A DNA stretch of 64,000 nucleotides. Origin: Sphaerolaimus hirsutus. Taxonomy: Eukaryota > Nematoda > Chromadorea > Monhysterida > Sphaerolaimidae. Both the position numbers and the translations under genes were made by a program. The DNA is taken from positions 8,618,001 through 8,682,000 of the forward strand of contig OZ038454.1 in NCBI GenBank assembly GCA_964036195.1, written 5' to 3'. The notes under the pieces are model-generated. The model was not told the origin of the DNA. It made no database searches and was given only the letters and a program-made list of their open reading frames with translations. Every line of letters begins with the position of its first letter. Position 1 is the first letter of the stretch. Of the stretch, positions 4,455 through 27,880 are shown in pieces.

Positions 4455-5925
4455 ATTCTAAACACCTTCCCGGACAAGTTCACCGCCCATTTTTTAATTT
4501 CACTTCGAATGCAATATCTCTGTCCAATGGGGGTGCTATAAAGCTGAAACTTTGTATATATAAAGTTGTAAGACCCCTCTACTCCCCAACAATGGGGGGA
4601 GGTGCGGCGACTCACTACAGGGTGGGTCGCCCCTATATGCAACAATTTTTTGTGGCGTTTTTGGTGTCCCAAGCAAGTTCACCACCCACTTGATTAGCTA
4701 CACTTTGAAGGCTATATCTCCAGCTGTGAGGGCGTAGAAAGCTGAAATTTGGGGGATGTCTTGCCAACAACCCCCTCACAATACACCAGTGGGCGGCTGC
4801 CGACGACCCACTAAAGCATGGGTCACTGCATATAAAGTTGATAATTTTTTTAAGAACAGCCCAAGTGTTCCAAGCAAGTTCGCCACCCAACTGCATTATA
4901 AAAATGTTGTGAGAACATACCTGATATAAAAATTGAATTAGATTTGAACCCTAGTTCTGCTCATTAAAATTTATTCAGTAGGGCACCCACCCTGTCCCAT
5001 AAACAGCAGACTGAAAATTTCACTTTAAACCAATTTTTTGTATCACACTTAAAAAGTTGGTTTACAAAGTTCACTAGGGGAGGGTCTAAGGTTCAAAGTT
5101 ATGTAAACAACATAACCTCTAAAATGCTTCCATAAGGAAATTTATTTGGGGTGAATGAAAAAGTCAAAATTTCGTCAAATTTTGTTCCTGAAATGACATC
5201 ATTTTGACATCATAGAATTCACCCCAAGTAAATTTCCTTATGGAGGCATTTTAGAGGTTATGTTGTTTACATAACTTTGAACTTTAGACCAGTCTCAAGT
5301 GAACTTTGTAAACCAACTTTGTAAGTGTGAAACAAAAACATGGTTTAAAGTGAACTTTTCATTCTACCGTTTATGGGGCAGGGTGGGTGCCCTACTGAAA
5401 CAATTTTTTTTGGCTGAAATAGTGTTCCAACCCGATTCAGTTTTATATTAGGTATGTTGTTGCAACATATTTTTAATGCAGTTGGGTGATGAACTTGTTT
5501 TTGGGACACTTGGGCTGTTTTTAGAAAATGGTCAACTTTATATGCAGTGACCCATGCTTTAGTGGGTCGTTGGCAGCCGCCCCACTGGTGTATCGTGAGG
5601 GGGGTTGTTGGCAAGACATCCCCCAAATTTCAGCTTTATACCGCCATCACAGCTGGAGATATGGCTCTCGTAGTGTAGCCAATCAAGCGGGTGGTGAACT
5701 TGTTTGGGACACCAAAAACGCCAAAAAAAATTGTTGCATATAGGGCGACCCACCCTGTAGTGAGTCGCCGCACCTCCACCATTGTTGGGGAGTAGAGGGG
5801 TCTTACAACTTTATATATACAAAGTTTCAGTTTTATAGCACCCCCATGGACAGAGATATTGCATTCGAAGTGAAATAAAAAAATGGGTGGTGAACTTGTC
5901 CGGGAAGGTGTTTAGTACTGCGCGC
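4455..5925. repeat. Large fold-back: about 0.7-kb inverted arms
   Basis: The left arm (about 4,455-5,160) is the reverse complement of the right arm (about 5,215-5,925) over nearly its whole length, with scattered mismatches. An example is CACCTTCCCGGACAAGTTCA on the left and its complement near 5,900. The spacer is about 55 bp. No transposase is visible. The transcript would form a very long hairpin. Confidence 0.85.
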
Positions 5926-11513: not shown

Positions 11514-11709
11514 ACAGAGTTGTTAGAATTACTGAACTTTTTTCAAAGGTATATGTAAATATAAGTATTTTATTTTTACTTGCCACAAAGTAAAGAAAAT
11601 GTAAAATACTTTCTTTTCACTCGTACTCATGCATAAATGTGAGTAAAATACTTTTTTCCCAGGAAAATGTAAAAGCGAGTACTTTTCCCCTAGAAAATGT
11701 AAAAGCTTT
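11514..11709. mobile_element. Family D hAT-like element, truncated
   Basis: The left end CAGAGTTGTTAGAATTACTG is followed by the usual AAGTATTTTATTTTTACT and GAAAATGTAAAAGC blocks. The right terminus is missing where the retroelement 3' end begins. Confidence 0.55.
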
Positions 11710-11811
11710 AGTTTAGTAGTATACGAGATCGGGAGCCATACCCCTTTCGAGGTTACGCTCCTCTCCTATTCCATCCACATTTTGGTGGCTAGCTCTAGCC
11801 GCAACATCGAA

Positions 11812-14433
11812 TCATGGAATAACCTGATCAAACTGAGACATGCATTTGTTTATCATTACCGCACACTGCCTTCTATGTGCATGACACGTCTCACTCTCTA
11901 GGAAACCCTTTTGCCATTTACATGGCACAGTACAGTGGATGCTATTCATTCTTTCTCTTTCAGCGAGATTGTGCATACATCCATACACCACATGATATGT
12001 GTTCAATACAATTTTCACATATTCATTTGAACAATGTGGGCATGTTCTCCGTCCAGACTCCACCCATCTGCGCAGAGCATTATGCCTTGCTGCAAACCAG
12101 GCAAGCTCATTGAAATGTACCCCCTTAATTTCAAGAGTGTCGCATTTCCTGTATCTCCCAACTGATTGCTTGTTCACAGTTTCTGAAGTTTCCCGTCTTC
12201 TACGTCTATATATATATTCTTTAATGTTGTCTACTCTCCATCTTGTCGTATCTATATTTACCCCAATGAGTGTTTTGCATTCTAATACCATTTTTGACAT
12301 AGTATTGTCATGCTTTAATCTAGCACTGTTGTGAAGTGTCCTGTCAATATCATATGTTCTAGATAGCCACCTATCTCTGCGCACAAGCGCCATGTATCTA
12401 TCAGTTGACAGTATTAATTGACGATATTTGTCAGACGGTAATATGCCGTCCAGATCATTGAGTAGCGAGGCATTACTACACGAGCTTGGCAAACCTGCTA
12501 TTCGTTTCATTGTCTGTAGATATATTCTATCCATCTCTAGAAGATGTTTTGTGTTAAGACCTGTTATCTCAACACCATACATACTGCCTGGTTCTACATA
12601 TGATTTCCATGTGATTTTCCCTGTGTATATAGGACTTATTGTTTTGCGTGCGGCACTAATTGCCAGCGAGCTTAACTGTCTCATTTTTGTAACACATCTC
12701 TCTTTGTGCATTTTGAAGGGGTCTGGTCCTGTATTGATCAGTACCCCCAGATATCGTAGTGAAGTTGTTTCATTCAGAACAGCCGTCTTACCGTTCTTTG
12801 GATCACCTACTGGAATGTGCCAGCATTTGGATTTCACACTCTGAATGCCCCATCTCAGGACCTCACTTTTGCTACTGTTTATACTTACACTCCATGTCCA
12901 TGCCCAATCACTAAATATATTTAGAAGTGATTGTAATTCCGAATCTTTACTTGCCATAATTACGATATCATCAGCAAAGAATAGTGCAGGTATTTTTGCT
13001 TGATTCCAACCACACTTTGCACCCATTTTAGTGTCCAGCAGTACTTTTGCTAGGTCATGGAGGTATATGGCATAGAGAGTTGGACTTAAAGCACACCCCT
13101 GTGCCACCCCTATCGGGTATTGAAGTTTTTCACTGTGGTAGCCACCATAAGTCATCACTGCCTGTGTCTTTTCGTACACGTTGGATATCGCAGTGATTAG
13201 TTGTGTTGGAACCCCCATATCACGCATCTTTAACCATAACTTATCTCTATCCACACGATCAAAGGCTTTCACAGCATCAAGGAAACAAGTCATGAAAGCA
13301 TTCCCATTGGCTTGGGCATAATTGTAACAAGTCTTTAGGATGTGTACATTATCCAGTGTTCTCCTATGCGGGCGAAACCCCCCTTGCATTTCTGTTAGGG
13401 CATTTGTATCCTCTAGCCAGCGAATCAATCTCTGATTCAACACAGACATATATAACTTCTTAATATTGCATGACAAGCCTAGTGTTCTATAATTCTTTAA
13501 ATCACTCTTACTTCCCTTTTTGTGTAACAGAATCATCTTACAGATTGCTGCATTCTCAGGTATACTATCACCCTTGAGCCAACTGTTAAACACATTTACC
13601 AGTACTTTTTGGTGGTCTTCCTCTAACAATTTTAAGTGCTCGTGAAAGACTCCTGTAGTACCTTCAGATTTATTATTTTTTAGTTTTATAATTGCCTTCT
13701 CAACTTCAATTAATGTTATAGGATTATCTAGTTTTGACAGCTGTTGTCTCGTGCATGCCACTTTACCAACTTTCTTTATATCCTGCAATGAGGCCCCTGG
13801 ATTGGGGGCAATTACTATATCCCAAGCTTTTTTAAGTTCTGTTTTCATACCAGTTTCCGTAACTACATGTTTCCCTTTATCATCTACAATTGTATGAATG
13901 GTGTTGACACCCCCCCCTCTGATTTGATTCACTTTTTTGTATACAGTATTGATATGATAGTTGGCACCTTTTTTTGTGAGTGCAATTATATCTTTTTCCC
14001 TCTTTGTTCTTTCTAATATTTTTTTCATCTTGTCAAGGCTTTTTCTCTCCTCTTTGAGAGACGTTTTGGTTGCAGTAACCTCATCTTCAGACATATCAGT
14101 TTTCAATTTGCGCCGAAGTTTTGATATTTTCCGACACTGTTTAGTGATATTTTTTGGCACAGTTGGTAAAGTGACACACACTATACTCTCATTACCTGCT
14201 TTATTTATCAAATCTACCATACCTTGATATGAATTCACCTCACAACCTTGTATTGTCTTTTGGAAGTGCATCTCTTCTACATTGTTTTTTGGTCTTTTCA
14301 ACTTTTGTTTTGGATTCTGTAATTCCACCGGGTAGTTGAGTTTTAAGATCATCGCGTTGTGATCCGAATTAATGCTGCTTTCCGAGCCACATTCATCTAT
14401 TACACCAGAGAGAACCGAAATATTTCCATCCAC
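11812..14433 (-). CDS. Non-LTR reverse transcriptase (retroelement ORF2)
   Basis: The 873-residue frame begins in the C-terminal end of the EEP endonuclease: SDHN, the last catalytic motif, is within the first 30 residues. RT motifs follow: FLDAVKAFD (Asp 386 and Asp 392), then AQGCALSP, FADD at 486-489 and the NSSKSE block, so the catalytic aspartates are present. A C-terminal zinc-binding motif C-x2-C-x12-H-x4-C starts at residue 798, as in several LINE clades. The first codon is GTG and the frame overlaps ORF1 by 34 nt in a -1 relation, so translation probably depends on frameshifting or the frame has been broken by an indel. Function: target-primed reverse transcription of the element RNA (family knowledge). 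Confidence 0.9.
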   Translation of the reverse strand: MDGNISVLSGVIDECGSESSINSDHNAMILKLNYPVELQNPKQKLKRPKNNVEEMHFQKTIQGCEVNSYQGMVDLINKAGNESIVCVTLPTVPKNITKQCRKISKLRRKLKTDMSEDEVTATKTSLKEERKSLDKMKKILERTKREKDIIALTKKGANYHINTVYKKVNQIRGGGVNTIHTIVDDKGKHVVTETGMKTELKKAWDIVIAPNPGASLQDIKKVGKVACTRQQLSKLDNPITLIEVEKAIIKLKNNKSEGTTGVFHEHLKLLEEDHQKVLVNVFNSWLKGDSIPENAAICKMILLHKKGSKSDLKNYRTLGLSCNIKKLYMSVLNQRLIRWLEDTNALTEMQGGFRPHRRTLDNVHILKTCYNYAQANGNAFMTCFLDAVKAFDRVDRDKLWLKMRDMGVPTQLITAISNVYEKTQAVMTYGGYHSEKLQYPIGVAQGCALSPTLYAIYLHDLAKVLLDTKMGAKCGWNQAKIPALFFADDIVIMASKDSELQSLLNIFSDWAWTWSVSINSSKSEVLRWGIQSVKSKCWHIPVGDPKNGKTAVLNETTSLRYLGVLINTGPDPFKMHKERCVTKMRQLSSLAISAARKTISPIYTGKITWKSYVEPGSMYGVEITGLNTKHLLEMDRIYLQTMKRIAGLPSSCSNASLLNDLDGILPSDKYRQLILSTDRYMALVRRDRWLSRTYDIDRTLHNSARLKHDNTMSKMVLECKTLIGVNIDTTRWRVDNIKEYIYRRRRRETSETVNKQSVGRYRKCDTLEIKGVHFNELAWFAARHNALRRWVESGRRTCPHCSNEYVKIVLNTYHVVYGCMHNLAERERMNSIHCTVPCKWQKGFLESETCHAHRRQCAVMINKCMSQFDQVIP
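14400..14433 (-). other. Overlap / -1 frameshift zone inside the EEP domain
   Basis: ORF1 runs on past its EEP residues (SVIDLA) to a stop at 14,400, while the reading continues in ORF2 (VDGNISVLSG ... SDHN). Moving from ORF1 to ORF2 needs a -1 shift near GGCTTTGTGG. I see no canonical X-XXY-YYZ slippery heptamer. It could be a single-base indel in this copy or a programmed shift. Confidence 0.6.
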
Positions 14434-17400
14434 AAAGCCAAGATGCCATCATTGTGAGCCAAATCTATGACTGAGCGAGCGTTTGCCCGTTCATAAGTCC
14501 AGAGACCATTTAGTTCTCTGTTTATAGGTGCCAACCCCACATTTGCCATAAATTCACGCACTAAAATTCCATTTTTATTAATTGAGAGTGTATTTCCGGG
14601 GCATCCCCACTCATCATCTCCTATGTGACCATTGAAGTCACCAAAAATAATTGTTTCCTCACCATTTTGACGATTTTGCAAAACGATTCTCTCCAAATTA
14701 GCTATTATCTCTGCATTTAGCCTACGTGCAGCACTGGAATTGAGCACCTTATTATTATTTTCCAGGTATACAATGATTAAATTCACATTTTTTTCCTTTT
14801 TTCCATTTTTGGCATTTTTTTCCAATATAGGGTGCTCCCTAATTTTTATGTTTAGTACATTGTCTTCAATGGTGTCAGCAGTTTTGTTCACTGAGTATTT
14901 TATACCTTTACGCACGTATATCGACAGACCACCTGTTTCTTTACCTTTTTTGAACGAATGTGTTGATGCATAGCCACCAATATTTATCACCTCGGAGGCA
15001 TTTCTGTACTGTGTTTCAGTAAAACACAGAATATCACTACCAGTTTTTAGGATTGTACCAAGCAATGCTGTGGTCTGGCTTCTCAAACAGCGCGCATTTT
15101 GGTATAAAATACTCAATGAAAGTAACATGGTACTTGTCTGTTCTGCTATCAATGTGAGATTTGCTGCTTCTACTGGATTCACGAGACATAGAAAAGTATA
15201 TAAAACCAGCCAGAATCTGATGTTTATTGAGCTACGTGTACTGCGAATCATTTCCACCCTGTGGTAATCTAATCGATCAGTATACTTTAGATCCCCATTT
15301 AGAAAGCGTAAAAAGCGCAAAAAGCATAGAAATGCAAAAAATATCACGTTTAGCAACCACGGTATTGGGCCAAAACATGAAGCATTACTATCGACAAAGA
15401 GCCTTAGAGCACACGTAGAAAAGTGATATAAATTCCGAAAAATAAACCCATCACACAAATATTTGAAAAATTTCCCATAAATTTGCGAAAAAGTAGCATT
15501 TAAAAGATTCATGTATGATGTATATGCCGTATACATCTGGTACGCAGTGGGCAGCATGACGTGTAATAGTAAAGTGAAAAGTGTAAGTAATAACAAAACT
15601 TCAATGTGAGCGGAAATGTGACATTTCGTATATAAATGGAATTTTTGAATATCATAGGCTGCATCTTTAGATAGAAGGGTATATTTTGATTGCGTCCTTT
15701 TTTCAACAATGGTTCCCTTTGAAATTGGTTCATGTTCTGTGTCCATATGAGAAATTTTTTGGAGATTTTCGTTGTGGCAGTCTATGATATTCTTTTGAAT
15801 TGAACGATTTTGCAATTTATCAACTTCCTCGCCCTGTCTGCTCCCACTTCTCTTGACATTTTCAAACGGTTTCAGCGCGCTCACTCCGTGTCTGCATGAA
15901 ATTTCGATAAAATTAGATTGGCACTGTTCCAAGTGGGGAATAATCTCCATACAATGATCGCAGAAACACGATGTTATGTTCTTTTTAGTTGCATCTACAT
16001 ATTTTTCTTGAGTGACATCATAAGTTCCAAGCTCGAAAAAGCATTTGTGTAGGTGTAAAAAGTCGACTGTATACACAGAGAAGACATCTAACCTGGGTTT
16101 ATAGTCTGCATGAAGGATGTAATGAAGCGTTGATTCACCGGGGGTGCACGTTTCCGCTCGCGCTGGCGCTTTCTTGTCGCCGCTGCCTAGAAATACATTC
16201 TTGTTTGAGGTACATACTTCAAGCAATATCAACGAATTTAGAACCCACATATTTCTCAGTATCTGCAGGGCCAAATGTGCCACAATTTTATGCCCTGATT
16301 TCACTGTATGTAGGCCATCACGAGCTATTAAATGAACCATGGCCTGGGCGGGCGAGCGCACGCCCAATTCGTGAAACTTTTCAAGACAGAAATTCATTAG
16401 TGGCAATACCATCACAAGTTTTGTTCGCGCCCGTAGAAATTCTCTCAGCGCATTTTCCAAGTCCAAGTAAAAGTAGAAAATTTCACAGGCCAATTGATCG
16501 CACCAAACTGATGAGTTATAGTCTGGTAGGGTCGGTCCAATTAGGCTCAACAAAATACGCCCATGGGGTTGCAGTTTCAGATTTCCCGTAGACAAAATAG
16601 TGTTGAACAAGTCCGACACAGGTCTCAAGAAGTTTTCTCTCACACTTGTCCCTTCTCTTTTTACCGCTAAACAATGTTCTAGATCAGTGCTGTCTAGAAC
16701 ACCGCGTATGAGAACCAAATCATACGCATTTGGATTTTCAAAGTTTTTCAAAATGGTTCCCATACATGGCAGACGTTGCCCCGAGAACACAGTGCCGGTT
16801 GCATCAATTTTCAATTTCAGATTTTGCGCCTGTGCCTGAGTTGACAATTCTGGCACCAGTCCAACGCTCGTACTGTCTCCCACTACCATTACAGTGTAGA
16901 AATAGTCGGTTACCTTAATAGGTTCAAGTGGACATAACTTTGCTGTATCGGGAATGCATGGGATATATCTAGCATAGGATAGCAAAAAATGCGTTTTTAT
17001 GCAATTTTGACACATTTTTTGATTTTCATCATTCCAATAGATACTTCTGGATTTATGCAAGTCTATGGGTGGGGGTCTTTGAGGGAAAGTGTGATAAAAG
17101 ATAGATATAACATTTTTTGATAGTCGTGATTCGGATCTATGATCGACGTGTGTCTTGAACATATTCACCGGTCCCGAAAGAACAGGCATATCAAGCACTT
17201 CCGGGTACATTTCACGCCCATCACTTGGTCGGTATCCCGTCATGGCACCAAAATTCGGACATATTTTTAGTTTTCTAACTATCGACACAGGCGCAAGTAG
17301 TGAATTGTTAAAACACGGATCCCGCATTAATCTCTGCTCTGGCACTTTGTTGTGTTCCAGAAGTTTGCGAAAAAACTTTGTAATCTTTTGTTGGTTTTTT

Positions 17401-20400
17401 GGCTTCAAATCGCCAAAATTCACAAAACAGGTTGGTCCCACAATAGTGCCATCTCGTCGTAATCCGCGGTATTCACTGAGAAGCTCACGCACCTGTGTAT
17501 GTGATGGGTTTGTGTTTTGCGGCTCCGAATTTTCGACTGCAAAAACGCCATGTTCGGCACTTGCCTGTGGTGGTGCTGCAGTCGACCCCCCCACAGGTTG
17601 AATTGGCGCCTCAGGCGAATCTGCATGTAAGTGTATTGATTGAGAGCAATAATCTTTTGGTGAAGTATCATTATTTGCTGACAAGTTCGATTTTTTCGAT
17701 TTTTGTCCGTGAGCACACGTTTTTTGTGAACTAAACAGACAGACCCCCCTTATGTATTTATAGCACATTTTTGCTTTATCGTATATACTTGATATCCACT
17801 TGCTACCCATCAAAACCACATAATATCCGAAAAACATGTGAATCTTATCAAATTTACCAAAATTTGGATCATCCTCTTCAAAAATTGACGCCTCATCGAG
17901 GACTTCACCATCTTCACCGTCTTCACCAGCGGCACGAAGCGCGGGGGTAACCATGTTATCCTCATATTCATTCTCCGACCCCTCTTCATCGAGTAGAAAC
18001 GGTTCCAGTTGCTGGGCAGCACCAGCTCCGACCTCGCCAGCGGCGTCCGCCACCGGTTCAGCGCCCGCGACAGCAACACGCCCAACGTTCGGTGGCTGTT
18101 GGTTGCTCCGTTCAATCACCCCTAGTAGATGCGCCACGCGAGCATTCAGCTCGTCCACTTGCGAGGTAACTGCGATAGATGAAAATGTTATGTTTGCGTG
18201 TTTGTGGATATTTGGGTTTTTCTTGACATGAGAATTTACCGATATATTTCTTATATTTACCGATAAAATGATACGGAAATCTGTCAATAACTTTTTCATA
18301 CATTTATGTATCCATACACATGATAATTTCAAGCTGTCAACAAATTTCAACCCCGAAAAGTGCATACCACTAGACGATGACGATTGCGCCTGTTGCACCT
18401 GATCCGCATTTTGTGCACTTGTAGCCGGCGGTACCAACACAACAGCGCTTGCGCCGGCGACTGTGAGAGAGGCAGACAGTTGTAATGATGTTTTTGACAG
18501 AAGATTTACACATTTTGTCCAACCCAAATATGGAAATGGTGTGAGTTTAAATGCGATTGAAAATTTCAATATTTTCGACACGTTCGATATTTTCGATATT
18601 AGTTTTTTCGATATTTTTGACCGTTGCATTGTGGGATTTCTTACGGTCCTAATTAACAAACCATTTGAAGAAATAATCGGAGCATTCGTTTGGGGCACTC
18701 CAGCAAAGTCAGTGTCCCCACCCCCAAGCTCAATAGCTGGTTCTTTAGTTTCCACTCTCGCTTTATGGAAAGCACTGACGGGGGTTGCTGATACGCTACC
18801 CCTTCCACGGAAAAATCCACCATTGAACGAAGACCCTCTCGCCGGGGCCCGCCCTCTAAATGCGTCATTTTGTGGGAAAAAGTTCATGGGCGGGGCATTT
18901 GATAGGGCGGCACCCCGCCCTCCTCTGGAACCCCCGCGATTCGTAAAATTGCCCTGATTTGCACCCGTATTCCCGCGTCCGCGTCGGGTCTTAAAGGGAC
19001 AACATAAATGTGGTATAGACAAAGGCAATGAGTATTTGTTATAAGGCAAGCCACACACAGCTAGGTGCAATGTTATTTCCACATAAATGCGCAAGCAAAA
19101 ACAGCACACACACAAACTCACCAAAAACTCAAAATGAGCCCAAATTAGCAAAATACATAGTGTAGGGCATAAATTATGCATAGGAACGCCATTTGCTATT
19201 GTAAATTTCTTTATAGATAAATTTTTCAATTTCTCACAATTTGCGTAGTACTCAACAATATATTTTAGTGTATTTCCGAATCTTTGATGGTCATACAATA
19301 GCAGTATTTGTGTACGCACAACGATACCATGTTTGCCAACATAAATACTGCTCTTGTCATGAACCATTTTTCCATGATTTGTGCAAGTAGACGGTAAATG
19401 GCTCATGCTATCGATAACGATCCCACAACCCCCCGATGTTAGGAGAGGTATACCAACAAATAATTCATCAGTTAGTGAAATATGAGATTTTGGGGAAAAG
19501 TTACTATGGGTATTGTTTTTTTCACAGTGTATATTCGAAATACGTTCACACATGAGTAATTTGAGTATAAATTTATCGCTTTTTTTAGGAAAATCTAGTA
19601 AATTTGAATAGTTTGCAAAGGTCCTTAGCATTGTATTATACTTCATAAACTTCAAAAACAGCCCTAAGTCAATTGTGGTGACATTTCGCAGGTAACCCCC
19701 AGTAATTAAAGGGTGACTCACCTTATTTGGGTCACGCAACATATTAAAAACCGCTCTCATACTATTTGTTGGATCTTTAATCTTCCAGTGACCTTTTTTC
19801 TCATATTCTTCAAAAATTCCATATTCCGGGGCTGTCACCCATTTACCGCTAGCATCGCGCATGCGGTATGCATAATCTTGGGTTATGCACGCCCTTGTTT
19901 CCATCAGAATTTCTCCCCACAGGTTCATAAATGGTCGTTGAAAACAGGGCCCCACCATTGTGCTCAAAGCGATCTGAGTAGTGTTAAGTACTTTAGAAAT
20001 TGCTAATGATGCCAATTTCACACAGTATTGTAGGTTATTTTTCAAAAACGACAGTGCTCTCTCAAAAACACCCGGAAGACACACGCAAATCGACAAGTGA
20101 CAGGCTAATAATAATAATGATATGTGTCGACCGAAGCAAGCATATAGTCGACTCACCTCTGTTGACAATTTGTCATTTCCACACAGGAGTGCGCCCCGAA
20201 AACCGCTATTTGGAAAGCTGCCAGTGCACCGTATGAACCGCGGATTATCGCGAACTTCATTGCCAACTTTTTCTTTGCCAGTTTGCCACAACAGTTGCCT
20301 GTGTGGAATGGTTGTGTCAGATGTAGGTATATCGATACAATATGATACGTTGTCATACCGGGTAAAATTGTCAAAACTGTTTGAAGTTGATACTGACACA

Positions 20401-23400
20401 CAATTTTGCAGACTAGCAGTAAACGAGTCTGAGGCTATTGTTGCGAAACATTTTGATACGTATGGTTCAAATAGTGTACTAGAGTTCTTCAGAGTTGTGT
20501 ATACAGGTAAACTGTATCTGTCGTTGGTAAGACAACTGTAAAATTTGGAGAAAATTGCATCCATGAAATAACAATTATAACCACACCTGAACTGTGGGTT
20601 GTTCAACACAGCGTTTTTCATAATCGTTTTCACCGTTTTGTAGGCAACTGTTGATTTGGCTTCTTCGATGCTACTGTACAGCTGCTCATATGGACCGGAC
20701 CCTGGGTTGAACCATTTGGGGCCCATTTCGGAATTACCCTGAGCTAGCTGAGCTTGCCAAATCGCGCTCCAAGCGGCGTTCATGCGCAGTACAAAGTCAT
20801 TGTACTTTCTATCGAAATTGATGCCGTTGTGCTTGACAAAGTATGCGCAGCAGGCGAACACAGAGTTTTCAAATTCAATCCCGCCTACGGCCTTTGCTTC
20901 AGCCTGTAGGGCATAATAAGATTGATTTAGATTGTATACTGTAGATGTATCTATTCTGTTTTGAGAAAATCTTAAATTTGAAACTGAGACTTTATGTCGC
21001 TGTATATCGACCCCTTTGAACTTTACGAGGCAAAATATAAGTCCACCCAAAAAGTTTGAACTCTGTCTTAGTAAATTGATTAAACAAACCATCATCATTG
21101 CGAGCGCAATGCACGGAAACTTCTTTCCTTCGTGTATGACCGTCAGGGGAAACATAAAACCCAAAATATCCAGTGGGTCTGTTAGTGTCACCAATAAGTC
21201 ATGTTCGGCCACACGACCCCTAAACTCTTTTGGCACCGCGCCAAGCTTCGGGCGCACAGTCTGAAAAATATAGGATTCTTGAATATTAATAAGTATGTAA
21301 GCACATTCTATTTTATCTACACAGTTCATTTTATAACACCCCATACGCCCATTTAAGTCACCCATTTGTTTGATATTGAAAATCGTTTTGTCAATACAAG
21401 ATACACAAGGCCAATGAAAATGATAAGAAGGACAAAATCGCTCCAATACCTGTGCCAGAGCATTTTGCTGCGGCGGATCGCATTGCGGGGTCGGGGTAGC
21501 TTCGACGGGGTGCATAGTCACGCCAGACGTTTTAGCACGTTTGGAAATTTGGCCCGTTGCCAGAGTCTGTGTCGGAGATTTGCGCTTGGTACGTGTTTGG
21601 GCGGCGGCGCTGGCATAGCTCGTCGCTCGCTGCTCCAACGCCAGCACTTTATCTTTCAATTCGGTGATATTTGCCAATAATTCGTCTCTTTTGGTCGTGC
21701 ACTGTGTGACAACGGACGGTTGGGTATAAGTTGAGTGTATCATATTTTGCAAGCAAAAAAGCATGGCACCTTTATCCATATTTGCACATAGCATTTTTTT
21801 AAGATTCTTTGTGAATTCTAGTAGACCCCTTTCACCATCCATGAATCTAATACAGTTTTGGATATCTATAGAATTGTATATCTCCCCACAGACGCCAATG
21901 CTAATTTTGAAATACCAGTACAGTACAGTAAAGACAACCATATATATAATGGGGTCCGTATCCAAATATAGAAAGAAGGATGATGGAAAAATGAAAAATG
22001 TGTAATTTGACATCATACCTACCGTGGCCGCATTATCTTCCATCTTATCATCGATTTTTATAGTGTCATCTATCAACATGGTAATGTCACCTTCGATTGT
22101 TGCCAGCCGGACATAGATCCCGTCGCAATCTTCTTTGAGTCCTGTAGCCAGATCGGCCACAAGCAACTCAAACTGCAGGTTGAATTTGAATTTTTGATTG
22201 TATCTCACAGTACACCATACAACACGTCCGTTTGTTGTATCAGCTCGCTTAGCTCGCTTCGGAAAATCATTCCTAATTTTTAGCAACCAAGAATCGTACA
22301 TTTTTACTAAATTGATCGATTTGAATGAAGAGTATACACATATCGACTGCGAATCGATCCCAGAAAAACCACATAATAAGCAAAAAATACCATCGTACAT
22401 TTCCACTAAATTGATCGGTTTGAGAGAGGAGTATACACACATCGATTGCGGATTCAGCCCAAAAAAACCACATAATAAGCCAAAAATACCACTCACCCTC
22501 TCGGCAAATTTGGACAATAGACTCATTTCCGCACATGCATAATGTAGAAGATGGCCCATCAACATTGTGGCTCTAGTGGCATTCTGGTTTGGGTCCAACG
22601 TTTTTGTGCATTTGTGAATTTCGCTCATTACCACGTCAGGCTGGAACGGTGCCCCGCCGATAGTATATTGTCGCCTCAACTCTGCCGCATAACTGCTCCA
22701 ATTGAAGAAAAAGTTTTTTTGCGGTGCTTTCGGATCTGCAAAGCAAAGATTTTGTGATATGCAATTGCTTGTATTTTTTGCAGCCAACTGCCGTATACTT
22801 TTTAGATTCCAGCTATGTGAGCTCACAGGGATACTAATACCGGTCTGACCAGTACTAACATTCAGTATATTAGTTAGCGTACCGAAAAAACTAACAGCCC
22901 AATGATTGCAAGCCAATTTTACAATATAAAGAGAAAACTCACTCATATGAACGTGCATGTCATTCATAGACAGTACTCTATTATTCAATGCCTCAAGTTG
23001 AGATTTTAAGCACATGCCGCCCAGACGCTTATTGGATTGCTCTAGGGCCGCCAAGCGTCGTTTTTGAGCTAGGGAGCTAGACTCAGCACCTGTGTGTGCG
23101 AAATTGAGATTGGATATGATGAACAGTAAGGTTTTATCGAAGAGTATTTGATTTGCATATCTGAAAAAACTCCAACTCGGCCCATTTATAACCCAGGAAA
23201 TGCTAACAAATAAATTGTTGCGTATTAGTATTTTGATTAATTTACGTTGGCATATCATTTTTTGTTCACATTTTTGAGACATATAGCTTCGTACTAGGGT
23301 GAGGATATTTAGAGATGTCAGTTCGAATAAATTCTCTACACTTACAGAGGCTATTAAACCAAGAAAACATACACCGAACTGCGTACCTGCCAATTCCGGT

Positions 23401-24206
23401 AACGGTTTCACTGTGCTCTGCGTCTTGGATTTTGTCTGTTTTTCGGATTTCGCTTCCAATGCAGGGACATTTTCTCCCACCACGGTTTTTCCGACATCGT
23501 TTGTGACTTTCTGAACCGCCGCATTAGATGTACCGACCCCCTCGTTTGCCACCACATCAACATTAGGAATCGATACTGCTGGGGGGGGGGCCGCACCCCC
23601 CAATTCCGGCGAGAATTCCTCACCCGGCTCATCTCTGCGTGAATAATGAGTATTTCGGTTCGCATATAATGATGCTTCAAAAACCACCCATGATGCCCAT
23701 GATATGTTTAACTGCTTTATGATTACCCCCAATGAGCTATATAGGGCCACCCCCCAATAGTAGATATTGACTTTATTTGTTACCGAAATTGACGTAGCTC
23801 TCTTGCTGGCAGCAGAAAATGAGTTTAATGATATACATCCCATAAACCCAAGGGATAGTGTGCGCATAACTAACCTAATTGTCGACAGGCGTGACGGATG
23901 TGGTGTTGTGCTATACATTCTGCCGCGCGGATGACGCGTTTTGGACCAAACCAGTCGCAGAGCTTTCTTTTCTTCATTCGGCATCTTGGAGATCGCCTCC
24001 TGCAACCGTACGTCAAGATTTACAGAGATACAGCTACATATTCCAAACAGTGGATAAACTTTATAAGCACATATTCCAACCTCAAATTTTTCTTCATCGG
24101 TTAATTGAAGAATTTCGGCAGTTAGGTCATCTTCCGGCATGACCTCCTCGAACGTTTCAGCCGAGTTGCGAGTAGACCTCGTACGTTTTTTAATTCGATT
24201 ATCCAT
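14400..24206 (-). CDS. Retroelement ORF1 polyprotein: coiled coil, RGG box, SGNH-like hydrolase, EEP endonuclease
   Basis: The frame is open from 24,575, but the first ATG is at 24,206 (residue 124 of the open frame), so I start there. Residue numbers below count from 24,575. I see candidate coiled coils at about 506-544 and 959-992, an Arg-Gly-rich segment (about 1,863-1,929) typical of RNA binding, an acidic stretch (about 2,196-2,240), an SGNH-like domain (GDS at 2,566-2,568 and DGLH at 2,753-2,756), then an EEP endonuclease (QNAR with Asn 3,160, TET, GDFN at 3,312-3,315). Its SDHN motif lies in the next frame. Seventeen segments inside the frame have splice consensus at both ends and all are 3n and stop-free. 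If they are removed the protein is about 1,640 aa. The N-terminal two thirds match no family I recognise. The RGG and coiled-coil content suggests an ORF1-like RNA-binding role (inference). Confidence 0.7.
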   Translation of the reverse strand: MDNRIKKRTRSTRNSAETFEEVMPEDDLTAEILQLTDEEKFEVGICAYKVYPLFGICSCISVNLDVRLQEAISKMPNEEKKALRLVWSKTRHPRGRMYSTTPHPSRLSTIRLVMRTLSLGFMGCISLNSFSAASKRATSISVTNKVNIYYWGVALYSSLGVIIKQLNISWASWVVFEASLYANRNTHYSRRDEPGEEFSPELGGAAPPPAVSIPNVDVVANEGVGTSNAAVQKVTNDVGKTVVGENVPALEAKSEKQTKSKTQSTVKPLPELAGTQFGVCFLGLIASVSVENLFELTSLNILTLVRSYMSQKCEQKMICQRKLIKILIRNNLFVSISWVINGPSWSFFRYANQILFDKTLLFIISNLNFAHTGAESSSLAQKRRLAALEQSNKRLGGMCLKSQLEALNNRVLSMNDMHVHMSEFSLYIVKLACNHWAVSFFGTLTNILNVSTGQTGISIPVSSHSWNLKSIRQLAAKNTSNCISQNLCFADPKAPQKNFFFNWSSYAAELRRQYTIGGAPFQPDVVMSEIHKCTKTLDPNQNATRATMLMGHLLHYACAEMSLLSKFAERVSGIFGLLCGFFGLNPQSMCVYSSLKPINLVEMYDGIFCLLCGFSGIDSQSICVYSSFKSINLVKMYDSWLLKIRNDFPKRAKRADTTNGRVVWCTVRYNQKFKFNLQFELLVADLATGLKEDCDGIYVRLATIEGDITMLIDDTIKIDDKMEDNAATVGMMSNYTFFIFPSSFFLYLDTDPIIYMVVFTVLYWYFKISIGVCGEIYNSIDIQNCIRFMDGERGLLEFTKNLKKMLCANMDKGAMLFCLQNMIHSTYTQPSVVTQCTTKRDELLANITELKDKVLALEQRATSYASAAAQTRTKRKSPTQTLATGQISKRAKTSGVTMHPVEATPTPQCDPPQQNALAQVLERFCPSYHFHWPCVSCIDKTIFNIKQMGDLNGRMGCYKMNCVDKIECAYILINIQESYIFQTVRPKLGAVPKEFRGRVAEHDLLVTLTDPLDILGFMFPLTVIHEGKKFPCIALAMMMVCLINLLRQSSNFLGGLIFCLVKFKGVDIQRHKVSVSNLRFSQNRIDTSTVYNLNQSYYALQAEAKAVGGIEFENSVFACCAYFVKHNGINFDRKYNDFVLRMNAAWSAIWQAQLAQGNSEMGPKWFNPGSGPYEQLYSSIEEAKSTVAYKTVKTIMKNAVLNNPQFRCGYNCYFMDAIFSKFYSCLTNDRYSLPVYTTLKNSSTLFEPYVSKCFATIASDSFTASLQNCVSVSTSNSFDNFTRYDNVSYCIDIPTSDTTIPHRQLLWQTGKEKVGNEVRDNPRFIRCTGSFPNSGFRGALLCGNDKLSTEVSRLYACFGRHISLLLLACHLSICVCLPGVFERALSFLKNNLQYCVKLASLAISKVLNTTQIALSTMVGPCFQRPFMNLWGEILMETRACITQDYAYRMRDASGKWVTAPEYGIFEEYEKKGHWKIKDPTNSMRAVFNMLRDPNKVSHPLITGGYLRNVTTIDLGLFLKFMKYNTMLRTFANYSNLLDFPKKSDKFILKLLMCERISNIHCEKNNTHSNFSPKSHISLTDELFVGIPLLTSGGCGIVIDSMSHLPSTCTNHGKMVHDKSSIYVGKHGIVVRTQILLLYDHQRFGNTLKYIVEYYANCEKLKNLSIKKFTIANGVPMHNLCPTLCILLIWAHFEFLVSLCVCCFCLRIYVEITLHLAVCGLPYNKYSLPLSIPHLCCPFKTRRGRGNTGANQGNFTNRGGSRGGRGAALSNAPPMNFFPQNDAFRGRAPARGSSFNGGFFRGRGSVSATPVSAFHKARVETKEPAIELGGGDTDFAGVPQTNAPIISSNGLLIRTVRNPTMQRSKISKKLISKISNVSKILKFSIAFKLTPFPYLGWTKCVNLLSKTSLQLSASLTVAGASAVVLVPPATSAQNADQVQQAQSSSSSGMHFSGLKFVDSLKLSCVWIHKCMKKLLTDFRIILSVNIRNISVNSHVKKNPNIHKHANITFSSIAVTSQVDELNARVAHLLGVIERSNQQPPNVGRVAVAGAEPVADAAGEVGAGAAQQLEPFLLDEEGSENEYEDNMVTPALRAAGEDGEDGEVLDEASIFEEDDPNFGKFDKIHMFFGYYVVLMGSKWISSIYDKAKMCYKYIRGVCLFSSQKTCAHGQKSKKSNLSANNDTSPKDYCSQSIHLHADSPEAPIQPVGGSTAAPPQASAEHGVFAVENSEPQNTNPSHTQVRELLSEYRGLRRDGTIVGPTCFVNFGDLKPKNQQKITKFFRKLLEHNKVPEQRLMRDPCFNNSLLAPVSIVRKLKICPNFGAMTGYRPSDGREMYPEVLDMPVLSGPVNMFKTHVDHRSESRLSKNVISIFYHTFPQRPPPIDLHKSRSIYWNDENQKMCQNCIKTHFLLSYARYIPCIPDTAKLCPLEPIKVTDYFYTVMVVGDSTSVGLVPELSTQAQAQNLKLKIDATGTVFSGQRLPCMGTILKNFENPNAYDLVLIRGVLDSTDLEHCLAVKREGTSVRENFLRPVSDLFNTILSTGNLKLQPHGRILLSLIGPTLPDYNSSVWCDQLACEIFYFYLDLENALREFLRARTKLVMVLPLMNFCLEKFHELGVRSPAQAMVHLIARDGLHTVKSGHKIVAHLALQILRNMWVLNSLILLEVCTSNKNVFLGSGDKKAPARAETCTPGESTLHYILHADYKPRLDVFSVYTVDFLHLHKCFFELGTYDVTQEKYVDATKKNITSCFCDHCMEIIPHLEQCQSNFIEISCRHGVSALKPFENVKRSGSRQGEEVDKLQNRSIQKNIIDCHNENLQKISHMDTEHEPISKGTIVEKRTQSKYTLLSKDAAYDIQKFHLYTKCHISAHIEVLLLLTLFTLLLHVMLPTAYQMYTAYTSYMNLLNATFSQIYGKFFKYLCDGFIFRNLYHFSTCALRLFVDSNASCFGPIPWLLNVIFFAFLCFLRFLRFLNGDLKYTDRLDYHRVEMIRSTRSSINIRFWLVLYTFLCLVNPVEAANLTLIAEQTSTMLLSLSILYQNARCLRSQTTALLGTILKTGSDILCFTETQYRNASEVINIGGYASTHSFKKGKETGGLSIYVRKGIKYSVNKTADTIEDNVLNIKIREHPILEKNAKNGKKEKNVNLIIVYLENNNKVLNSSAARRLNAEIIANLERIVLQNRQNGEETIIFGDFNGHIGDDEWGCPGNTLSINKNGILVREFMANVGLAPINRELNGLWTYERANARSVIDLAHNDGILALWMEIFRFSLV
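15259..24080 (-). other. Seventeen predicted in-frame, stop-free introns of the retroelement
   Basis: Predicted introns (donor-acceptor, plus-strand numbers): 24,080-24,000; 23,916-23,635; 23,386-23,090; 22,942-22,736; 22,496-22,173; 22,022-21,702; 21,449-21,261; 21,089-20,904; 20,586-20,299; 20,156-19,974; 19,721-18,990; 18,661-18,461; 18,367-18,170; 17,857-17,621; 17,168-16,914 (donor uncertain); 16,248-16,183; 16,092-15,259. Donors include GTGAGT four times; acceptors are pyrimidine-rich with CAG in 14 or more. Lengths run from 66 to 834, all divisible by three, and sum to 4,881. The translated introns are hydrophobic and low in complexity, unlike the neighbouring exons, which is why I call them introns. 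Junction phases match at every one. Confidence 0.65.
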
Positions 24207-24740
24207 CGAGTTAGTATATAGATATGTTAGTAACACGCCAGCGCCCTCGCCCCTGTACGTGTAAGAGCATATATTGTCATTTTGGCACTCTTCCAATTTT
24301 TTGGAAAAAATGGGCAGAGACCAAATACCGACAGAAACATAACGCAGATATGACAAATCTACGAATATACTCCTAGACGGTTTAATGGAGAAAGATGTAA
24401 GTAATGTTGATGATTTTGAATGGTTTTGACCCTTTTTGGGTCGAGCCAAAAATTCTTGGCTCCTTGCCAAAATGGCATAGTCAGCGTATTTGCCGACGTT
24501 CGATGAATGCCTGTCCTTTTTGGACACTCGGCAAACATCACAGGGGGTCTTTTTGACCAGCCCTACTACAAACACCCAAGATGCGTCAATCTTAGGCCTT
24601 GACAGCGTTGTTTTATAGCGTCAACCAAGAAAATCGGAATTTTCTTTTTTTTTCCCATCTACTACTTTTTACATGTGAGAGTGTCAGTTTTACTCTGAAA
24701 GGCATAATAGATGTCGTTTTTTGGTGATCATATAGTATTT

Positions 24741-25722: not shown

Positions 25723-26726
25723 CTCGAAATACCCCCCCCCCCTCGCAATACCCCCCCCCAAATTGAGTGTATAGAGAACGTAAATGACAAAGGCTGCGGT
25801 TGTCATCCGGGCAATGCAGAACACATGTTAAAAACAATGACTCTGTTATGTGAGAACAGTTTTTATACATCTACACACTTATACAAGTCTTTAGAGTCTT
25901 ATAAATGGCAATGTTTGTCACATTTTTCGACGTCTGCGTACGTTTCAAACGACAATTTAGTACTGGGATTTCAAAAAATTTCTGCCGAAATAATACCCCC
26001 CTCGAAATACCCCCATCGTTTAACCCCCCCCCCCCTCTCAAAATTCTCACTCTGAAAAAATAAACCCCCAGGGCCAGATTTAATTCTCCCTACAGATTTG
26101 TAGGGTAGGGCGTATGCCTGATAGATTTTTTAGAGTTCAACCACGTCGACGCACATGCACTGAGAGCAAGACAGTTCATAAAATTAACGAAAGTATCCCT
26201 TAATGTCGCCGATATTACAATCTGTTGTATTTTACTTCGATTTTGGCCCGTAAATTACGATTTCGTCATTTCTTGGCCGTCAGCCAACTCTTTCTTTTTT
26301 CGATTTTGTCGGGCGCATTACTCGCACAACTCGCGATTTTGTTTGCTCGTGTATGCATTTCTTTATTTTCACTGCCCTCATGTTTCGTCTGTAGGGCAGA
26401 GAAAACTAGGAAGTGCGCATCCGACTATACAAGATTACGAGTTATGCCAGTAATGCGCCCGACAAAATCAAAAAAGTAAGAGTTGGCCGATGGCCAAGAA
26501 ATGACGAAATCGTAATTTCCGGGCCAAAATCGAAGTAAAATACGACAGATTGCAATATCGGCGACATTAAGGGATACTTTCGTTGATTTTATGAACTGTC
26601 TTGCTCTCAGTGCGTGTGCGTCGACATGGTTGGACTTTAAAAAATCTATCGGGCGTACGCCCTACCCTACAAATCTGTAGGGAGAATTAAATCTGGCCCC
26701 TGGGGGTATTTCGAGGAAATACGGTA
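25723..26726. mobile_element. Family A MITE interrupted by a palindromic insertion
   Basis: The C-rich CTCGAAATA blocks on the left (25,723-25,760 and 25,990-26,065) and the right end TTTCGAGGAAATACGGTA (ending 26,726) are parts of one family A element. The inserted palindrome occupies 26,066-26,703. The left TACCGTAT terminus is not recognisable. Confidence 0.6.
26066..26703. repeat. Long palindrome with about 270-bp arms
   Basis: GGGCCAGATTTAATTCTCCC on the left and its complement on the right bound two arms that match with few differences (for example CGATATTACAATCTG / CAGATTGCAATATCG). The spacer of about 100 bp reads ATTTGTTTGCTCGTG ... CTATACAAGATTACG. The arms have no coding signal. 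Confidence 0.8.
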
Positions 26727-26837: not shown

Positions 26838-27880
26838 AGAGTTGATAAAAGTACTGAACTTTTTTCAAAGTATATGTAAACATAGAGTATTTCTTTTTAC
26901 TTGTGCTGAAGCGCAGTAAAAAGCGAATATATATATATATATATTTTTTTTTAACTTCAACATTTTTTGGATATTTATCTTTATCAGTTGTTGACTTTTT
27001 TAAATAGTTGAAATTGCTCGCTAAAGGGCGATTTGTCAAAGGCAAGTGTTTTTATTGATATTTGCCGCTGTCTGTTGGCATTTGATGATGTGCCACCGAT
27101 ATCGGATTTTTCACTTCACTTGAGAATACAAATAAAATACTGTCAGGAAATTTGGAGATAGATTCATATCTAGAATTAATCTAAATGAGTGTTTTTATTT
27201 TAATCCAAGATTTTAATAGGACAAACTTTGCTTCAACGTTTTGGATTTTTACATTACTCACCCCCAGGGTACAGAAAACATCGAGTAATTTTTTTTACTT
27301 TGGTACACATGAGTGAACATACTTTTCCCTGGACAATGTAAAAGTGAGTTAAAGTATTCTAATGTACCTATGTTGTAAAGGTATTTTTTTATAAATATTT
27401 CTCTAATTTTCACCAAATCACTAGTTTTTGCACCGTTTTGCACATTTTTACTTTTAAATTCACCATTTCGAATGCTTTTTGCCTATTTTCAGCTATTATC
27501 TTTAAAGAAAGAGTGCAAAATTGCACTTGCCTCAGGTGGGAATCGAACCCACACGTCTCGTATAGAACAAGAGTGGCCTAGCCACTAGACTACAGAGGCG
27601 GCTGGGCTCTTCACTATTAGGGGCTGACATGCTGCGACGGCAATGCCCTTATCATTAATATACCCATTTTTGGATATTTTTCCATATTTTACAGCTTTTT
27701 TTCTTCCTTCGATGCCGTTAAAAAGCGTATATCTGAAATAGGTACATTTTCTGTACTCAAGTAAATTGAAAAAGTATATATAAATCCGAGTACAGATACT
27801 TTTTTCAGAGGAAACATAAACCTATTGACTCAGTACTCGAGTATACTTATTTTCGACTAAACATAAACACGTTTTAACAC
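26838..27880. mobile_element. Family D hAT-like element, enlarged by an insert
   Basis: The left end is AGAGTTGATAAAAGTACTG and the right end is CACGTTTTAACACTATG. The usual GAGTACAGA and AGTAAATAC blocks are present on both sides, but about 27,460-27,720 is extra sequence that contains the tRNA-like gene. An adjacent partial family D right end is at about 26,727-26,822. Confidence 0.5.
27528..27599 (-). tRNA. tRNA-like gene, Glu-type body, apparent anticodon TCT
   Basis: Read on the minus strand, a 72-nt cloverleaf is possible. Acceptor arms are GCCTCTG and CTGAGGC (6 of 7 pairs). The T arm is a perfect GTGGG/CCCAC stem around TTCGATT. The D arm GTCTAGTGGCTAGG resembles tRNA-Glu. With standard spacing the anticodon loop is GTTCTAT, giving TCT (Arg), with a mismatch in the anticodon stem. 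Shifting the stem by one base would give CTA. It may be a tRNA-derived pseudogene or SINE head. Both RNA polymerase III boxes are recognisable. Confidence 0.55.

Follow-up and report, generated by a model that had tools for sequence, protein, structure and literature searches.

Stop-free predicted introns in the long reading frames of a LINE retrotransposon family from the nematode Sphaerolaimus hirsutus

Introduction

A stretch of 64,000 nucleotides (nt) from the nematode Sphaerolaimus hirsutus (GenBank assembly GCA_964036195.1, contig OZ038454.1, positions 8,618,001 to 8,682,000; hereafter the window) carries on its minus strand a member of a family of long interspersed nuclear elements (LINEs). 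We report that the 5' half of this family appears to contain about 16 spliceosomal introns, and that all the introns which could be counted have lengths that are multiples of three and are free of in-frame stop codons. The best explanation, which we hold to be somewhat more probable than all its rivals taken together, is that the unspliced RNA is the template for reverse transcription and is translated throughout, that the spliced RNA gives a clean protein, and that the introns are neutral in content yet kept open. The open-intron state is confirmed, at the level of genomic sequence, as a trait of the family of LINE copies and not of the window copy alone.

Results and Discussion

The element and its relatives

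The window holds a single minus-strand open frame of 3391 codons at 14400..24575, counted from the first GTG, exactly as an earlier note on this DNA had described it. From stop to stop this frame covers 14400..24620 (3406 codons) and comprises ORF1-like exons, introns and most of an endonuclease. The endonuclease is of the APE type (14457..15098, minus strand; PF14529, E 3e-07; PF03372, E 1.7e-05) and continues into a second minus-strand open reading frame (ORF) of 878 codons (11812..14448), which holds the end of the endonuclease, a reverse transcriptase (RT; PF00078, 1e-30) and a C-terminal part, and in which no introns were seen. A frame change near 14450-14470 divides the endonuclease of the window copy between these ORFs. 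Eight relatives that were fetched (a1, a2, a3 and b1-b5) have the downstream RT ORF in the frame of the upstream part, and a single frame of 4226-4609 codons runs through to the end of the RT. Among solved chains, the RT is closest to L1 ORF2p and R2 proteins. No Pfam match to a GIY-YIG endonuclease was found at E up to 0.1, the APE-type endonuclease being matched instead, and several relatives carry (AAT)n or (ATT)n tails at the 3' end. Judged by its predicted APE-type endonuclease and the RT downstream of it, the element belongs to a LINE family, that is, to the retrotransposons without long terminal repeats (LTRs).

Relatives were sought in the assembly from which the window comes (348.5 Mb in 762 contigs). 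With the window RT as the query, at least 51 relatives besides the window were found among the best 52 of 1268 candidates scored, at 54-65% amino-acid identity. Ten long-frame copies were fetched, then five more, and also a near-identical one whose frame is broken. One of the ten (a10, L027/L028) proved to be a gypsy-like LTR element and was dropped as a family member; its reported open frame has 4837 codons, and a second match, on contig C16, has an equal reported length. The viral contig and genome contig collections searched yielded no relatives of the element. Six pairs among the copies a1, a2, a3, a4 and b1 (L009-L016, L029/L030) share 77-79% DNA identity over the last 3.4-3.6 kb at the 3' end, and their 5' parts gave no megablast match; the two parts behave as if they evolve or exchange separately.

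Predicted introns and their splice sites

An initial gene-finding model gave implausible exons and was dropped, and borders based on homology were used instead. Sixteen introns were drawn by hand in the window, most of their borders were compared with other copies, and 15 introns entered the counts. These 15 range from 81 to 732 nt, total 3,885 nt and have, every one, a length that is a multiple of three; they contain no in-frame stop, against 88 stops in one and 75 in the other of the two remaining sense frames. The earlier note had proposed 17 introns of 66 to 834 nt, 4,881 nt in all. Inner segments of this kind are real, but its list was not reproduced.

All the introns lie on the minus strand. 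At ten of the 16 positions, both GT and AG were found at the homologous base in most placeable copies: introns 1 (24000..24080, 81 nt), 2 (23635..23874, 240 nt; GT donor in all five closer copies, a3, b2, b3, b4 and b5), 4 (22736..22942, 207 nt), 5 (22173..22496, 324 nt, including an in-frame 99-nt tandem duplication), 6 (21702..22022, 321 nt), 8 (20904..21089, 186 nt), 9 (20299..20586, 288 nt), 10 (19974..20156, 183 nt), 11 (18990..19721, 732 nt) and 14 (17621..17857, 237 nt). For introns 3 (23090..23386, 297 nt; donor not placed) and 13 (18170..18367, 198 nt) the acceptor alone is conserved, with AG in five of the five closer copies in each case. Support for introns 7 (21261..21449, 189 nt; borders inexactly placed in most other copies), 12 (18461..18661, 201 nt; window only) and 16 (15892..16092, 201 nt) comes mainly from the window copy. 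The weak candidate intron 15 (16943..17110) has uncertain borders and was left outside all counts, because the drawn donor is not even GT. An additional intron may lie within the unconserved stretch 15890-15190.

To what extent do these segments differ from the exons around them? The translations of the 17 exons and 16 introns of the window were compared with 15 other ORFs, one of which was the unrelated LTR element, where no exon found a match. Most exons match the closer copies, with amino-acid identity reaching 87%; exons 3 and 13 have no match in any of the 15 ORFs. The introns gave no match in the 16 x 15 translated comparisons at an E cut-off of 0.01.

The splice sites, by contrast, are conserved. 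When the window exons were fitted to nine copies, 75 of the 112 donors had GT, and 87 of the 107 acceptors AG, precisely at the homologous offset; ten shifted offsets gave GT 1-9 and AG 0-14 times. Badly placed exons are included in both denominators, and the rates at well-placed junctions are therefore higher. Introns 8, 9 and 10 were also located in five distant copies (41-43% RT identity), with GT in 15/15 and AG in 15/15. In the 85 non-window introns selected for GT and AG, the acceptor is CAG in all 85, a pyrimidine stands two positions upstream of the C, and the donor carries G at position +5 in 74. The claim that the inner segments carry donor and acceptor consensus is thus borne out by an extended consensus at homologous borders.

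A search with the joined protein of exons 8-11 gave 212 matches, and at least 64 loci with an exon-9 match, the window included, were counted by eye among the matches listed. One match, C13:26524449-26525159 (reported frame 4347 codons), runs unbroken through exons 9, 10 and 11. In the 1,251 nt fetched from this place (L047), introns 9 and 10 are missing exactly at the predicted junctions, and introns 8 and 11 are kept. This is what would be expected of a reverse-transcribed, partly spliced RNA. Suspected losses in L048, L049 and L050 proved false, the matches having run on into introns; further matches extend past an exon border (C6:20166224, C7:4559975 and C4:5115870), so that the cases of intron loss number at least one. 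The conserved splice sites and the exact absence of two introns in L047 support the notion that the inner segments are spliceable introns. One could also imagine that nothing is spliced and that the segments are hypervariable linkers in a giant polyprotein, as the frame that is open over its whole length would allow. Such linkers would not be expected to have an extended splice consensus at homologous borders, nor to be exactly absent, two at a time, from L047, and we consider this explanation exceedingly improbable.

Reading frame across the introns

We next consider 100 introns from 14 copies (26,226 nt): 15 from the window, 70 of the 128 intron places in eight copies, and 15 from five distant copies. 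The other 58 places were excluded for poorly placed flanking exons or for want of exact GT-AG borders. Two of the copies, b2 and b3, are closely related and do not count as independent. Copy a4 (L015/L016) was dropped for its broken frame, which is due to about 970 nt inserted into exon 6 and not to an intron. All 100 introns, of 81-819 nt, have lengths that are multiples of three. In frame, there was no stop in 8,705 codons, against 707 in 8,642 and 635 in 8,624 codons of the other sense frames. The stop rate of these two frames, 7.8%, predicts about 677 stops where none was seen, and chance is thereby excluded as the cause. The earlier claim of an absence of stops beyond expectation is therefore upheld, and no intron with a stop turned up in the other long-frame copies that entered the count. 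The introns are AT-rich, and their base composition by codon position, unlike that of the exons, approaches that of random DNA matched in base content and stripped of stops.

Open introns could have been a habit of the whole genome. This idea was ruled out by the host actin genes that were fetched, one of which has five introns. In 3,784 nt of actin introns (nine introns, from two gene regions) there are 59 in-frame stops, and each of the other frames has 60; every intron has at least two in-frame stops, and six of the nine lengths are multiples of three. With this one gene family as the basis, open introns are not a general property of the genome, because the actin introns are full of stops. 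A further actin gene (G000:C637, L041) is GC-rich, intronless and unlike the others, and perhaps comes from a contaminating organism in the assembly.

Substitutions in a close pair of copies

Across 12.95 kb, b2 and b3 share 96.9% identity, and this pair was used to compare non-synonymous and synonymous differences. The exons have 17 and 27, respectively (pN/pS 0.25), the RT part 24 and 24 (0.39), a stretch that mixes exons with unplaced introns 67 and 45 (0.63), and the ten placed introns 79 and 27 (1.13). Synonymous divergence is equal in exons (0.040) and introns (0.041). By the Fisher test, exons differ from introns with p 6e-5, and the RT from introns with p 0.005. Stop-creating changes in the introns were expected 4.2 times and seen not once (Poisson p about 0.015). 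Beyond the 5' edge of the reading frame, all seven insertions or deletions are multiples of three, and three of these are in placed introns (15, 15 and 12 nt). The duplicated 99-nt unit of window intron 5 shows nine non-synonymous and five synonymous differences (pN/pS 0.73), too few to decide.

The earlier note had named codon-like conservation of the intervening segments as a sign of ordinary coding sequence; across the copies compared, the lack of any intron match and the pN/pS of 1.13 indicate no such conservation. These results bear on another explanation, in which the intron peptides are functional and the protein is tuned by alternative splicing. Spliceable, stop-free segments of triplet length define the class of exitrons divisible by three, in the part of PMC4484396 available to us, and the predicted introns of the element are likewise stop-free, of triplet length and bordered by splice signals. 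The exitrons described there are, however, coding, GC-rich and changed mostly at synonymous positions, whereas the element introns have no similarity between copies, a composition that is AT-rich and near random, and peptides that look neutral but are held open. An exitron-like function is thus improbable.

A model for the persistence of open introns

A LINE that keeps many introns over deep divergence is a paradox, because retrotransposition should erase them. In the model that we favour, introns would persist because the unspliced RNA is the template for reverse transcription. LINE proteins work chiefly on their own encoding RNA, a cis preference established for L1. If the same unspliced RNA is also the messenger, its translation would have to pass through all the introns in order to reach the 3' endonuclease and RT, and each intron would for this reason be stop-free and a multiple of three in length. 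The spliced RNA would supply a clean multidomain protein, and the need for that protein would keep the splice sites in place. Which amino acids the introns encode would not matter. From the conserved splice sites, the apparently neutral and open introns, their triplet lengths, insertions and deletions, their unlikeness to actin introns and the loss in L047, we infer translation of the unspliced RNA, cis coupling and a separate role of the spliced product.

This agrees with the earlier suggestion that selection keeps the introns translatable since the unspliced RNA is both template and messenger; selection for readability is supported by the genomic comparisons, and the double role of the RNA would explain it. 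A second part of that suggestion, a short protein from spliced and a long one from unspliced RNA, needs modification. Both RNAs encode the endonuclease and the RT, and the contrast would therefore be one between a clean and an intron-laden protein.

The nearest rival holds that the introns are open so that the unspliced template escapes nonsense-mediated decay, its protein not being needed. PMC2911113 deals with the decay of transcripts that retain introns. This rival accords equally with the absence of stops and the triplet lengths, and sequence alone does not separate it from our preferred reading. Under it no frame that reaches the RT is demanded, although such a frame follows if the exons are coding. 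We regard it as unlikely, yet clearly ahead of the other alternatives. Introns might also be retained because the template is antisense or otherwise cannot be spliced, the open frame having a separate cause. For Penelope-like elements, an antisense template has been put forward as one cause of intron retention (PMC3846280), but it would leave the open sense frames without a reason, and for our family it appears very improbable.

Several points weigh against translation of an unspliced template as the explanation. The whole case is built from DNA, and the selection test is based on a single close pair. Apart from the window, every copy in the intron counts was picked for its long frame. Within the first five bases of the stop-to-stop frame of b2, in the leader, there is a 1-nt insertion or deletion together with an end gap, both left out of the count given above. 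Copy c1 (L039/L040), 98.9% identical to b2, has its one frame break in an intron, where 71 nt of intron 8 are duplicated in tandem. In L050 (541 nt), a fragment of a decayed copy, exon 11 has a stop and three more stand upstream of that exon in the same frame; the open-intron property is thus lost in dead copies. L047, finally, suggests that spliced RNA can be reverse transcribed, and in that case introns should vanish over time unless they are kept by something. The choice of long-frame copies, the broken intron of c1 and the intron stops of L050 would also fit a pattern due to chance or sampling, in which only luckily open copies were examined. Set against the deficit of some 677 stops, the stop-rich actin introns and the open frames, 4200 codons or longer, reported for 10 of 51 relatives (among the best 52 of 1268 candidates, window included), the probability of this is negligible.

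The 5' leader and other features

A predicted structured leader, mostly within the open frame, is conserved at the 5' end (24420..24640, minus strand) and occupies the same place in L013, L032, L036 and L037. The RNA has 47 predicted pairs in five copies, with 91.9% of cells paired and 11 pairs changed on both sides, the structure having been predicted from the same alignment that was used to score the pairs. On four of the five measures no shuffle out of 500 reached the observed value; on the fifth, the number of further pair types, 472 of the 500 did so, and the RNA did not stand out from the shuffles. No Rfam match was obtained for 24420-24640 at the gathering threshold. In six copies the leader frame is open upstream of a conserved ATG, over 124-146 codons (24206-24620, minus strand), and an in-frame CTG was noted by eye near its start in five of the six (w, a3, b3, b4 and b5). 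The idea of a non-AUG start is weakened because the b2 frame begins downstream of the CTG place.

Two exons of the window have recognizable features. That at 18662..18989 (minus strand) has an RGG-rich stretch and no Pfam match, and perhaps binds RNA. The exon at 16093..16942 (minus strand) has motifs that we take to be SGNH-hydrolase-like; its only Pfam match, DUF459 with E 0.037, is below the cut-off. The 3' untranslated region is placed at 11700..11811 (minus strand). Outside the element, at 27528-27599 (minus strand), lies a tRNA-like gene whose anticodon is CTA. Genetic codes were compared after this finding, and a reassigned code was set aside, as nothing in the long ORF calls for codon reassignment. 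One weak 7tm_1 match, under its cut-off, and the actin gene with five introns point to an animal genome. Long inverted repeats at 4458-5915 and 26065-26705 are perhaps foldback elements or resemble miniature inverted-repeat transposable elements.

Comparison with known systems and significance

With APE-type LINEs the element shares the APE-type endonuclease and RT; many related copies were listed, and several relatives have a microsatellite-like 3' tail. It is unlike them in having about 16 predicted spliceosomal introns in the coding region, each open and of triplet length, and in the frames of 4226-4609 codons of the eight relatives. A literature search for LINEs with such introns, covering titles and abstract openings among the top matches and few subscription papers, found none. 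Penelope-like elements also retain spliceosomal introns on moving (PMC3846280, in part; Arkhipova et al., 2003, as cited in PMC6431247), but they are another class of element, and the portion of PMC3846280 available to us gives no account of a stop-free, triplet-length constraint. The many open introns of the element would also contrast with the reported rarity of stop-free introns of triplet length in eukaryotes (Jaillon, 2008, as cited in the accessible part of PMC4484396).

In retroviruses and copia, unspliced RNA is both genome and messenger, and spliced RNA leads to another product. Their intron is real coding sequence, whereas the introns described here carry no conserved protein. To our knowledge, no system unites neutral intron peptides with a strict frame. 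It is therefore tempting to speculate, with the chances in our estimate evenly balanced, that this is a new replication strategy, in which an RNA would be copied only if it has itself been translated end to end unspliced, introns would be selected for nothing but readability, and spliced sister RNAs would supply the N-terminal proteins.

For those who annotate genomes, the findings would be a warning that open frames of 4000 codons may contain several kilobases of intron. If the model is true, the combination of a neutral peptide with a strict frame would be a natural record of unspliced RNA having been translated before it was copied, and both cis preference and the survival of introns in retroelements would become testable by sequence.

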